From Syntrophaceae bacterium (GTDB lineage: Bacteria; Desulfobacterota; BSN033; UBA1163), in the NCBI GenBank assembly GCA_018333715.1, contig JAGXSW010000188.1, forward strand, positions 1-34,957: a DNA stretch of 34,957 nt, written 5' to 3'. The notes under the pieces were generated by a model that searched no databases, was not told the DNA's origin, and saw only the letters and a list, made by a program, of their open reading frames with translations. Shown here in pieces: positions 2,693 through 6,242 of the stretch. The position numbers and the translations under genes are program-made. How positions within the stretch are numbered: position 1 is the first letter of the stretch; each line of letters opens with the position of its first letter.

Positions 2693-4987
2693 TTACTTTG
2701 TTTTTTCTTTCAACGCTGCCAGCACCTTCTCAGGAGTAATCGGAAGTTCTTTAATTCTCACCCCTACCGCATCGTAAATGGCATTGGCAATGGCAGGGGC
2801 CGTGGGGACGAGGCCTGGTTCGCCAATGCCTTTGGCTCCGAAGGGACCAGAGGGGTCGTCTGTTTCGATCACAACAGCTTCAATATTCGGAACATCGGCG
2901 GCGGTTAGGATCTTATAATCCCGGAAATCTGGGTTGATCACCTTTCCGTTCTTAAGAATGAGCTGTTCAGTCAGGGCATATCCGATTCCCATTGCCGCCC
3001 CGCCATAGACCTGACCTTCTAAAAGCATCGGGTTAATCGCCCTGCCCACATCGTGGGCGGCTACATATTTCAGGATTTTAACCTGACCTGTCTCTTTGTC
3101 CACCTCGACCTCAACACCGTGTGTCCCGTAGGCATAGGTGACGGATAGATTTCCCTTGAATTCCCTATCGAGGTTTTCATTGGGAGGATCATAAAAATGC
3201 TCTGCCATAACCATTCTTCCGCCGGCGGTGTAGTGTGAAGCCCTGAGGATCTTTCCAAGAGGAGATTTCTTTTCCGGATCCAGTTTTGAAAAGATGGTGC
3301 GATCACGAATATCGAGATTTTCAGGGTTCTCTCCGAGAGATCGGGAAGCCACTTCGAGGAGTTGTTCCTTCACTTTTTTGGAAGCGCCTCTGGCTGAATT
3401 TCCTGCCACGAAGGTCGTTCGGCTGGCATGGGCTCCCACATCCCAGGGGCAGATGTCCGTATCGGTGTGGGTGACAATTACATCTTCTACCCTCACCCCG
3501 AGTTCTTCGGCGACGATCTGAGCGATGACCGTATCGGCTCCCTGTCCCATATCCGTGGCGCCGGTGATGACATTGACTGTTCCGAAATCATCGATCTTAA
3601 TGATTGTTCCACAACCGTCCGATTTGTAGACCCGGGCGCCTCCTCCTACATGGATCATCGATGCCATGCCAATTCCTCTTCCATCCCTTTTCCCCCGGTT
3701 CTGGCGCCAGTCTAACTTTTGGGCCACAACATCGATGCATTCCCTCAAGCCGCAGGTGGTGATGTTGAAATGCTGAGGGGTGACTTCTCCGGGCGTATTG
3801 GCGTTTCTCATTCTGAAGTCCAGGGGATCGATTCCAGCCATTTCAGCAAGGGCGTCAATTTGAGACTCAATGGCAAAGGTCGCCTGGGGGTTCCCATATC
3901 CTCGAAAGGCCTGGGAATAGGTGTTATTGGTATAGACGCATTTCGCCACATATCGAACATTGGGAACTTTATAGAGAGAGGAGATGGGCATCATCATGAC
4001 CGAAGGCGTGGTCGCTCCCCAGGAGGTATAGGCTCCGTTATCGAGAACCATCCGGACATCCCTGAAAGTGAATGTTCCATCTTTTGTGCAGCCCTGGGCG
4101 ATATCAATGACCGCAGGCTGTCTCGGCGAGGTGGCGAAAAACTCCTCTTCACGGGTGAAAATGATCTTCACAGGCTTACGGGTCTTGTAGGCCAAAAGGA
4201 TGGCGATGTATTCATAGGCGTAGGTGTCGAGTTTGCTTCCGAACGCCCCTCCGATCGTTGTCTTGATCACCCGGGCCTTTTTCCCCTCGAGCCCCATGGC
4301 AGCAAGCGCCTCCGTGTAATCCCGCTGTGCCAGCGCGGGAATCTGGGTATTGCTATATATCGTGAGATTGTTCCTGAGATCGAACCGAGCAACGCATCCG
4401 CTCGTTCCCATGCAGCAGTGGTTGACCCAGGTGAGTTTGAACCGGTCCTCTGCGACATGGGCCGAATTTTTTCTTGCTTCGTCCACATCTCCAGCGACAA
4501 GCCTCCATGGAAGGTTGAGGATATTGGTCGGTTTTTTCTCCTTTCCGCCCAAATGCTCCTCATGGATGAGGAGCGCTCCTTCTTTCATTGCATCTTCCGG
4601 ATCGAAGATGGCAGGAAGGATTTCGTATTCGACTCTGATCAAGCCCAATGCTTCCTCGGCAATATCCGGGTCTGTCGCAGCGACGGCCGCAACCTCATCG
4701 CGGTAGGAACAAACCTTATTCGCCTTCAGAGGCATATTGTCCTTGTAAAAACCGAATTTGATGAGCGGCGTATTATATCCCGTTAAGACTGCCTTGACCC
4801 CCGGGAGTCTCTCGGCCGCAGAGGTGTCCATATTGAGAATTCTTGCATGGGGATGGGGGCTGTAGAGGATTTTCCCCCAGAGCATCCCCGGGACTTTAAG
4901 GTCCTGGATATAGACCGCCTTTCCTGTGACTTTGTCCTCGGCATCCATTTTGGGAATTCGTTTTCCGATGTTGATGAAGTCTTGCAT
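2693..4987 (-). CDS. Xanthine dehydrogenase family molybdopterin-binding (large) subunit
   Basis: 764 aa; KVTGKAVYIQDLKVPGMLWGKILYSPHPHARI, TTIGGAFGSKLD, QAFRGYGNPQ, TDMGQGADTVIAQIVAEELG and GAKGIGEPGLVPTAPAIANAIYDAVGVRIKELPITPEKVL are characteristic. Confidence 0.93.
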   Translation of the reverse strand: MQDFINIGKRIPKMDAEDKVTGKAVYIQDLKVPGMLWGKILYSPHPHARILNMDTSAAERLPGVKAVLTGYNTPLIKFGFYKDNMPLKANKVCSYRDEVAAVAATDPDIAEEALGLIRVEYEILPAIFDPEDAMKEGALLIHEEHLGGKEKKPTNILNLPWRLVAGDVDEARKNSAHVAEDRFKLTWVNHCCMGTSGCVARFDLRNNLTIYSNTQIPALAQRDYTEALAAMGLEGKKARVIKTTIGGAFGSKLDTYAYEYIAILLAYKTRKPVKIIFTREEEFFATSPRQPAVIDIAQGCTKDGTFTFRDVRMVLDNGAYTSWGATTPSVMMMPISSLYKVPNVRYVAKCVYTNNTYSQAFRGYGNPQATFAIESQIDALAEMAGIDPLDFRMRNANTPGEVTPQHFNITTCGLRECIDVVAQKLDWRQNRGKRDGRGIGMASMIHVGGGARVYKSDGCGTIIKIDDFGTVNVITGATDMGQGADTVIAQIVAEELGVRVEDVIVTHTDTDICPWDVGAHASRTTFVAGNSARGASKKVKEQLLEVASRSLGENPENLDIRDRTIFSKLDPEKKSPLGKILRASHYTAGGRMVMAEHFYDPPNENLDREFKGNLSVTYAYGTHGVEVEVDKETGQVKILKYVAAHDVGRAINPMLLEGQVYGGAAMGIGYALTEQLILKNGKVINPDFRDYKILTAADVPNIEAVVIETDDPSGPFGAKGIGEPGLVPTAPAIANAIYDAVGVRIKELPITPEKVLAALKEKTK

Positions 4988-4998
4988 GAAACCTCCTT

Positions 4999-5128
4999 AA
5001 GCAGGTCAGGAGACCTGCTTCTACCCGATGATTCTTTGTTATTTGGCAGGTCAGGAGACCTGCCCCTACCCTGGTAGTTTCGAGGTTTCTAACCCTCACA
5101 GGGTAGTTTCGGGTCTCCTGACCCGAAA
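4999..5128. repeat. Intergenic REP cluster: palindrome doublet (45-bp period) plus oppositely oriented copies
   Basis: AAGCAGGTCAGGAGACCTGCTT (4999-5020), GGCAGGTCAGGAGACCTGCC (5045-5064), degenerate GTAGTTTCGAGGTTTCTAACCCTC (about 5074-5098), and inverted GGGTAGTTTCGGGTCTCCTGACCCGAAA (5101-5128). Confidence 0.85.
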
Positions 5129-5754
5129 TAACGCTTGATGTCTGAAAATTCGTATTGGAATATGTCGTTACATAGACCTTTTCTCAAAGGGTTTTGATAC
5201 ATATATCTTAATTTCTCAGTTAATTTCTTTTCGCTGAGAATGTTAAAATCGTAATAATCCGGCTGCCATAATTGATAAGTGTGTCCTTTCTTCTTTGGAA
5301 TCGGGAGCTGGATTTTAAATAGTGTTTCTTTATCCCATACCAAAAGATATTCAATGGCTTTTTTTGCAATATATTTCTTTATATCTCGTATGATGTCTGG
5401 AAGGTCAGGAGACCTTCCGCTACCCGCGGGTTGATTATTGCTCGGAAGGTCAGGAGACCTGTTGTTACCCAGTGATTCGCAAATCATGTGAATATGATCG
5501 GGCATGACAATAAATCCTTTTAATTTAAAATCCCCTCGTTCTTCATAGAACAACAAAGTGTTTACAGCTGCTTTAGCGATGTCTTTGTACTTAAATATCT
5601 CGACACGCTTATTTGTGACCATCGTAATAAAATGGTAGCCTTCGTTATATTTTCGTTTTTTCGATGGAAGGTCAGGAGACCTTTCGCTACCCGCGGGTTG
5701 ATTATTGCTCGGAAGGTCAGGAAACCTGCCGCTACCCATTGGTCTATCCATCAC
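5089..5754 (-). CDS. REP-associated tyrosine transposase (RAYT / TnpA-REP, IS200-like Y1 HUH family)
   Basis: Core YNEGYHFITMVTNKRVEIF...GFIVMPDHIHMICESL (HUH motif HIH), downstream DIIRDIKKYIAKKAIEYLL (candidate catalytic Tyr helix), and YMYQNPLRKGL typical of RAYTs. Confidence 0.85.
   Translation of the reverse strand: MMDRPMGSGRFPDLPSNNQPAGSERSPDLPSKKRKYNEGYHFITMVTNKRVEIFKYKDIAKAAVNTLLFYEERGDFKLKGFIVMPDHIHMICESLGNNRSPDLPSNNQPAGSGRSPDLPDIIRDIKKYIAKKAIEYLLVWDKETLFKIQLPIPKKKGHTYQLWQPDYYDFNILSEKKLTEKLRYMYQNPLRKGLCNDIFQYEFSDIKRYFGSGDPKLPCEG
5399..5460 (-). repeat. REP doublet inside the RAYT ORF (second doublet)
   Basis: AGGTCAGGAGACCT at 5402 and again at 5447 (45-bp period), with GCTACCCGCGGGTTGATTATTGCTCGG between; translated as SPDLPSNNQPAGSGRSPDLP. 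Confidence 0.9.
5666..5736 (-). repeat. REP doublet inside the RAYT ORF (first doublet, N-terminal)
   Basis: AGGTCAGGAGACCT at 5669 and AGGTCAGGAAACCT at 5714 (45-bp period), same spacer as 5399-5460; translated as GSGRFPDLPSNNQPAGSERSPDLPS. Confidence 0.9.
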
Positions 5755-5771: not shown

Positions 5772-6242
5772 TTATATTTTTTTGCTTGCTTCTTTAATAG
5801 CCTGGATGATCTGGAGATAACCGGTGCAGCGGCAGAGATTTCCCGCGATTGCGTTGCGGATCTCCTCCTCGGTGGGTTTCGGAGTTTCATCGAGAAGGGC
5901 CTTGGCCGACAAGACCATTCCGGGCGTACAGAAGCCGCACTGGACGGCTCCATTCTCGACAAAAGACCGCTGGATGGGGTGGAGATTCCCATCAACATCA
6001 GCCAATCCTTCAATCGTGATGACGTTTTTTCCATCCGTCTCCATTACGGGAAAGATGCAGGAATTGACGGCTTTCCCATTGATAAGGACGGTGCAGGCGC
6101 CGCATTCTCCCAGGCCACAGCCTTCCTTGGTTCCGGTGAGTTCCAGTTTCTCCCTCAGAACCTGTATCAGGGTGAGGTTGGGTTCAGCCTCGATTTGGAC
6201 GGGTTCGCCATTTAGTTTGAAATGAATGGTCTGTTTCATCAC
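5772..6242 (-). CDS. (2Fe-2S)-binding small subunit of Mo hydroxylase
   Basis: 156 aa; CGLGECGACTVLINGKAVNSC, QCGFCTPGMVLSAKALL and GNLCRCTGYLQI give the full two-cluster signature. Confidence 0.95.
   Translation of the reverse strand: MMKQTIHFKLNGEPVQIEAEPNLTLIQVLREKLELTGTKEGCGLGECGACTVLINGKAVNSCIFPVMETDGKNVITIEGLADVDGNLHPIQRSFVENGAVQCGFCTPGMVLSAKALLDETPKPTEEEIRNAIAGNLCRCTGYLQIIQAIKEASKKI

Follow-up and report, generated by a model that had tools for sequence, protein, structure and literature searches.

The window analysed here, a stretch of 34,957 nucleotides from a Syntrophaceae bacterium (contig JAGXSW010000188.1), carries a RAYT (TnpAREP) gene whose reading frame stays open across five GTAG-foot REP hairpins. 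Two further hairpins of this kind lie downstream, outside the ORF, which makes seven at the locus (Table 1). We consider it probable that the gene is a REPtron-like element whose ORF runs through both ends and to which copies of the left end have been added in frame, by the RAYT and/or by template switching or slippage on single-stranded DNA, with the products filtered by reading frame and activity.

Table 1. Coordinates of the RAYT gene, its REP hairpins and the neighbouring genes in the window.
Feature	Position	Strand	Remarks
Upstream neighbour, (2Fe-2S) subunit of a xanthine dehydrogenase-like enzyme	5772..6242	-	Same neighbour in G006
RAYT (TnpAREP) ORF	5089..5754	-	221 aa
Outer N-terminal REP unit, left-end type	5710..5737 (palindrome 5715-5737, 1 mismatch)	-	Translated GSGRFPDLP; extra copy
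Inner N-terminal REP, read as left end of the element	5665..5692 (palindrome 5670-5692)	-	Translated GSERSPDLP; common to all relatives
HIH of PDHIH	about 5496-5488	-	Within RAYT ORF
Middle REP unit 1	5443..5470 (palindrome 5448-5470)	-	Foot decayed to GTAA; translated GNNRSPDLP
Middle REP unit 2	5398..5425 (palindrome 5403-5425)	-	Translated GSGRSPDLP; in beta3-alphaC loop
Catalytic Tyr, Y184	about 5205-5203	-	From alignment to 4er8 and residue roles given in PMC6006769
Metal-ligand Asn, N188	about 5193-5191	-	Assigned as for Y184
Right-end REP, opposite orientation	5101..5128 (palindrome 5101-5123)	+	Encodes C-terminus FGSGDPKLP
Downstream non-coding REP, left-end type	5044..5071 (palindrome 5049-5071)	-
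Downstream non-coding REP	4999..5026 (palindrome 5004-5026)	-	Ends directly 5' of the AAGGAGG ribosome-binding site of the next gene
Downstream neighbour, molybdenum-binding subunit	2693..4987	-	Same in G006 and in RAYT-free relatives

The ORF encodes a genuine RAYT, as the original prediction had proposed. Its product passes the NCBIfam RAYT model REP_Tyr_transpos (NF047646; 91 bits, cut-off 80), scores 25.3 bits against Pfam Y1_Tnp (cut-off 23), and has a predicted structure for which the top fold match is E. coli TnpAREP with a REP hairpin (4er8_A, E 1.1e-7). Residues H87, H89, Y184 and N188 are almost invariant in an alignment of 26 homologues. An IS200/IS605 insertion sequence was rejected as an identity for the gene, which scores 20.3 bits against the IS200 model (cut-off 55) and is single-copy in its genome, where the sole other relative is distant (29% identity over 65 residues). 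The predicted core has pLDDT values mostly above 90. Repeat-encoded residues, which lie in the two terminal tails and in the beta3-alphaC loop, have low values (~48 at positions 1-30 and ~62-77 at positions 95-117) and little regular structure; the extra units are accordingly predicted to be disordered linkers of variable length. Reading of the window sequence showed that no in-frame ATG, GTG or TTG separates the N-terminal units from the conserved core, and a functional gene must therefore translate those units.

Read with the foot on the gene strand, the palindromes follow the pattern GGGTAG-N5-GGTC-N4-GACC and form straight-stemmed hairpins with a TCCT loop, some of them mismatched, as in the outer stem at 5710-5737. 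The arrangement described originally holds in the sequence: two in-ORF doublets each have a 45-bp spacing and an identical 28-nt spacer, CGCTACCCGCGGGTTGATTATTGCTCGG, the second doublet (5398-5470) falls between the HIH motif and the Tyr helix, a further palindrome in the opposite orientation encodes the C-terminus, and the feet are GTAG with a single GTAA. The translation given there is correct except for the first middle unit, which begins GNNR and not GSGR. Across the RAYT ORFs examined, 62 perfect hairpins (stem of at least 8, loop of 2-7) were counted against 2.5 in codon-shuffled controls, a number far above chance to which the window ORF contributes 0, its copies being slightly imperfect.

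Comparison with relatives separates two classes of hairpin. The inner N-terminal unit (GSxRSPDLP, adjoining KKxKYxEGYHF) and the C-terminal unit (FGSGDPKLP) are found in every relative that has the corresponding region, down to 57% identity and across three phyla, including locus L007 (Nitrospinae, 70% identity) and locus L008 (Schekmanbacteria, 57%), although the C-terminal palindrome is degenerate in L007. The two are of distinct types, with a TGGCA...TGCCA stem at the left and a TTTCG...CGAAA stem at the right. Because these hairpins are common to the relatives, and because solo REPs in these genomes often occur as a left and a right copy together, in many cases foot to foot, we read these hairpins as the inverted left and right ends of the element, with the reading frame crossing both. 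By the same sequence comparison, the additions are the outer N-terminal unit, which is missing from L007 and L008, and the middle units; these added units are uniformly of the left-end type and point the same way. The original picture of an ORF invaded by its own REPs thus fits the outer N-terminal and middle units, which are insertions, but not the inner N-terminal and C-terminal units, which appear to be ancestral ends; linkers vary in length among homologues, whereas the two end segments are shared down to 57% identity, the outcome originally named as counting against insertion. The middle unit of L007 substitutes for about six residues and is not a clean insertion. A second Schekmanbacteria genome (G401) holds a RAYT relic (L152:514-879) that has an internal deletion, has lost the Tyr motif and has PYHIH in place of PDHIH; it retains both end hairpins and an open frame, and precedes the same next gene as L008.

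Middle units form a series: L008 lacks them, L007 has one and the window two, and at least five occur in G006, a sister species whose RAYT sits between the same two genes. The G006 count is a lower bound read from two contig ends, as both contigs break inside the array. A search of 395 genomes of the phylum found this RAYT in the window's genome and G006 only. The GTAA foot of middle unit 1 is common to both, which indicates that this unit predates their split, while the later middle units of G006 are identical 45-bp repeats and its non-coding downstream array has expanded in 36-bp units. One spacer is common to both window doublets and differs from the spacers of G006, which are similar but its own, and this suggests exchange between the N-terminal and middle positions.

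The RAYT core is under purifying selection, with a dN/dS of 0.128 between the window and G006 over 154 codons outside the repeats, much like the values of 0.07 and 0.16 for the neighbouring genes; pseudogene drift is ruled out by this value (0.13). The stems co-vary through compensatory changes. Outer stem positions are paired in 83% of cases in 67 distinct units (shuffles: mean 49%, maximum 54%), and in 77% when only the 19 units from RAYT loci are used (54% in shuffles); as the shuffles ignore relatedness, these figures are support and not a probability.

We also considered the surroundings of the gene. A clean empty site was sought in relatives, but the spot is either short or often holds a small ORF, so the exact insertion borders are unreadable. 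This small ORF, which we take by eye to resemble four-helix-bundle (S23-like) proteins, often lies between the FeS and XDH genes at loci without the RAYT (L097, L099, L101, L102 and L105). In L099 and L105 it is flanked by AAATTCGAAGCACGAAA, which is also the left flank of the RAYT, and the spot therefore looks like an insertion hot spot. The REP hairpin at 4999-5026 could affect translation of the xanthine dehydrogenase-like gene. A phage origin was rejected after a scan of viral contigs gave no RAYT relative and the palindrome in two contigs only.

The REP family is present away from the locus, as a genome-wide count had been expected to reveal, and the same REP DNA was found at other sites in all four genomes. 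It is scarce in the window's genome, with about six copies at three loci of the 2.63-Mb assembly (five listed copies with at most 1 mismatch, plus a partner 46 bp away in C263). Family copies were also found in frame within other genes, encoding UvrA (L167:3-1301), a SAM hydroxide adenosyltransferase (L171:98-973), a PutA-like protein, in which the copy lies between two domains (L179:2-1300), and probably a membrane protein without a Pfam match (L191:1-702). All of these copies outside the RAYT are read in the same hydrophilic way, as GS.RSPDLP or as GSGDP.LP, its partner on the opposite strand, even though five of the six REP frames are open; this preference is suggestive, given that the events are few and the screen itself demanded open frames. 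In L155, L162 and L164 the long ORFs that overlap solo REPs are probably spurious and were set aside, and L168, L172 and L180, where the REP lies in an upstream frame extension before the domain, were left out of the count. In G006 and the window's genome, a repeated arrangement of a right-end REP, a ~19-nt spacer and a left-end REP (L157, L159, L160, L161 and L163) has its feet inward and a longer conserved flank, and is possibly a small non-autonomous element.

A homologue search with seeds including MPDHIHMI also recovered clostridial RAYTs at 22-28% identity. Many of their ORFs (L017, L020, L023-L025, L027, L028, L031, L035-L037, L041, L042, L213, L235 and L236) contain two in-frame GTAG REPs of opposite orientation that flank the HuH half, one after beta1/alphaA and the other, inverted, at the beta3-alphaC site used in the window. 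The two REPs are identical within the gene in 11 of 16 clostridial RAYTs, with a mean of 0.8 differences, compared with a mean of 7.5 differences across genes whose sequences differ; given the relatedness of the genes, the corresponding permutation result is no clean probability. Genomes G404 and G441 each have two RAYTs, each with its own REP pair, and the exact variant of one G404 pair is listed nowhere else in that genome, despite about 90 related REPs. Such matched pairs were not found in the passages of PMC6006769 examined, whose supplementary Figures S6 and S10 may already show them. One idea suggested by these genes, which we regard as rather doubtful, is that RAYT genes carry private, mutually matched REP substrates that evolve in concert and act as a heritable seed or a cis-recognition tag, with the tandem units of the window as another form. 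In an Oscillospiraceae RAYT (L018:4441-5869), a long array of alternating REPs extends from the upstream DNA into the apparent ORF N-terminus and recurs downstream of the gene.

In the reading that we favour, the RAYT gene is bounded by a pair of oppositely oriented REP hairpins whose GTAG feet face outward, and its frame crosses both ends, so that the first and last residues of the protein are encoded by the end hairpins. Further left-end hairpins, with a 17-nt (or 8-nt) spacer, have been added in frame, head to tail, both next to the left end and in the beta3-alphaC loop after the HuH motif. We infer that such copies arise on single-stranded DNA, where the RAYT would cleave and transfer strands next to its own hairpins and/or the hairpins and 45-bp repeats would prompt template switching or slippage. 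A change would be retained only if it keeps the frame, places its hydrophilic Gly/Ser/Pro/Asp peptide in a loop and does not abolish enzyme activity. The RAYT is a candidate for cutting or moving these REPs, and because the family is so small, with about six copies off the locus, it may now be inactive on them. For the identical tandem units of G006, slippage or unequal recombination would by itself be a sufficient explanation.

This last point bears on the main competing account, in which all of the extra units come from plain tandem duplication and gene conversion of the end hairpin, by replication slippage and RecA-type exchange, and the RAYT was uninvolved once the element had settled. The head-to-tail units in one orientation, their fixed 45- or 36-bp spacing, the identity of the newest G006 units and the similar expansion of the non-coding downstream array in 36-bp units all agree with it. 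However, it leaves unexplained how the first middle unit came to lie about 220 nt away from the end hairpin, in the beta3-alphaC loop, and clostridial RAYTs use the same site with other REP sequences in the opposite orientation, while solo copies elsewhere in the genomes show that the family did move. We hold duplication alone to be a real possibility, somewhat short of an even chance.

Two other accounts assign the segments a function. The in-gene hairpins could be kept as autoregulatory sites, through which binding of the RAYT to its own gene or mRNA would hold its expression down, and the maintenance of stems by compensatory change despite coding, together with the two mutually matched REPs kept inside clostridial RAYT ORFs, would suit such a role. 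This is unlikely, as feet and stems decay in some copies (the GTAA foot and the mismatched 5710-5737 unit) whose peptide frame is nevertheless kept, a middle copy is missing from L008, and covariation is expected anyway in any recently copied REP. It is more improbable still that the segments belong to the fold as an old functional element, with a secondary likeness to REPs: conservation of the N-terminal GSGRSPDLP and C-terminal FGSGDPKLP down to 57% overall identity is what this would predict, but the same DNA occurs elsewhere in all four genomes, the middle copies vary in number between 0 and at least 5, disorder is predicted for the regions and the stem changes are compensatory.

The observation is real and is a good example of a phenomenon already published. 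The original description of it as unusual was too strong, since the main text of Quentin et al. 2018 (PMC6006769) reports in-frame REPs between HuH and Y in tnpAREP genes of subclass 2.4, which it equates with Bertels group 4. That paper also lists an 8-aa insertion at the end of alphaB, and gives NH[IFV]H, WQ and YIxNNP as the key motifs of the subclass (its Table 1). As far as this account goes, the window protein resembles subclass 2.4 in its WQ and YxxxNP motifs, its lack of a C-terminal extension domain, the variable beta3-alphaC insertion of in-frame REPs (5398-5470), the REPs around the gene and the scattered distribution over phyla. It differs in having YMYQNP instead of YIxNNP (two positions) and DHIH in place of NH[IFV]H, and because of the latter we have not filed it in that subclass. 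It also differs in that its REPs form an N-terminal doublet and the C-terminus, so that the ORF spans both end hairpins, and in that unit number varies between sister species at one locus; neither an ORF through both end hairpins nor expansion between sister species was found in the passages of PMC6006769 examined. E. coli TnpAREP (4er8) shares the fold, the HuH-Y core and a GTAG foot 5' of the hairpin, at 19% identity in the fold alignment, but its REP hairpin has an obligatory bulge (PMC8266576), unlike the straight TCCT-looped stems of the window, and no in-gene REP copies are reported for it in the parts of the literature examined, compared with five in the window RAYT. Short in-frame palindromes in protein genes, thought to lie in linkers or loops, are also known from the intragenic GTAG/CGTC REPs of Di Nocera et al. 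2013 (PMC3733652), which include uvrA among their targets, and from Rickettsia palindromic elements; here, in contrast, the host gene is the cognate transposase itself. A Rickettsia palindromic element was rejected as an identity for the window repeats, whose foot is GTAG and not a CGTC tag.

The series of 0, 1, 2 and at least 5 units, together with a syntenic sister locus, presents a selfish repeat that has become part of the coding sequence for its presumed spreading enzyme. To our knowledge, whether and how RAYTs move REPs has not yet been shown directly in cells. The unit series supplies defined substrates, with step sizes of 45 and 36 nt, for testing REP movement by RAYT, and the matched in-gene pairs of the clostridial RAYTs could reveal what keeps a transposase coupled to its repeat family.
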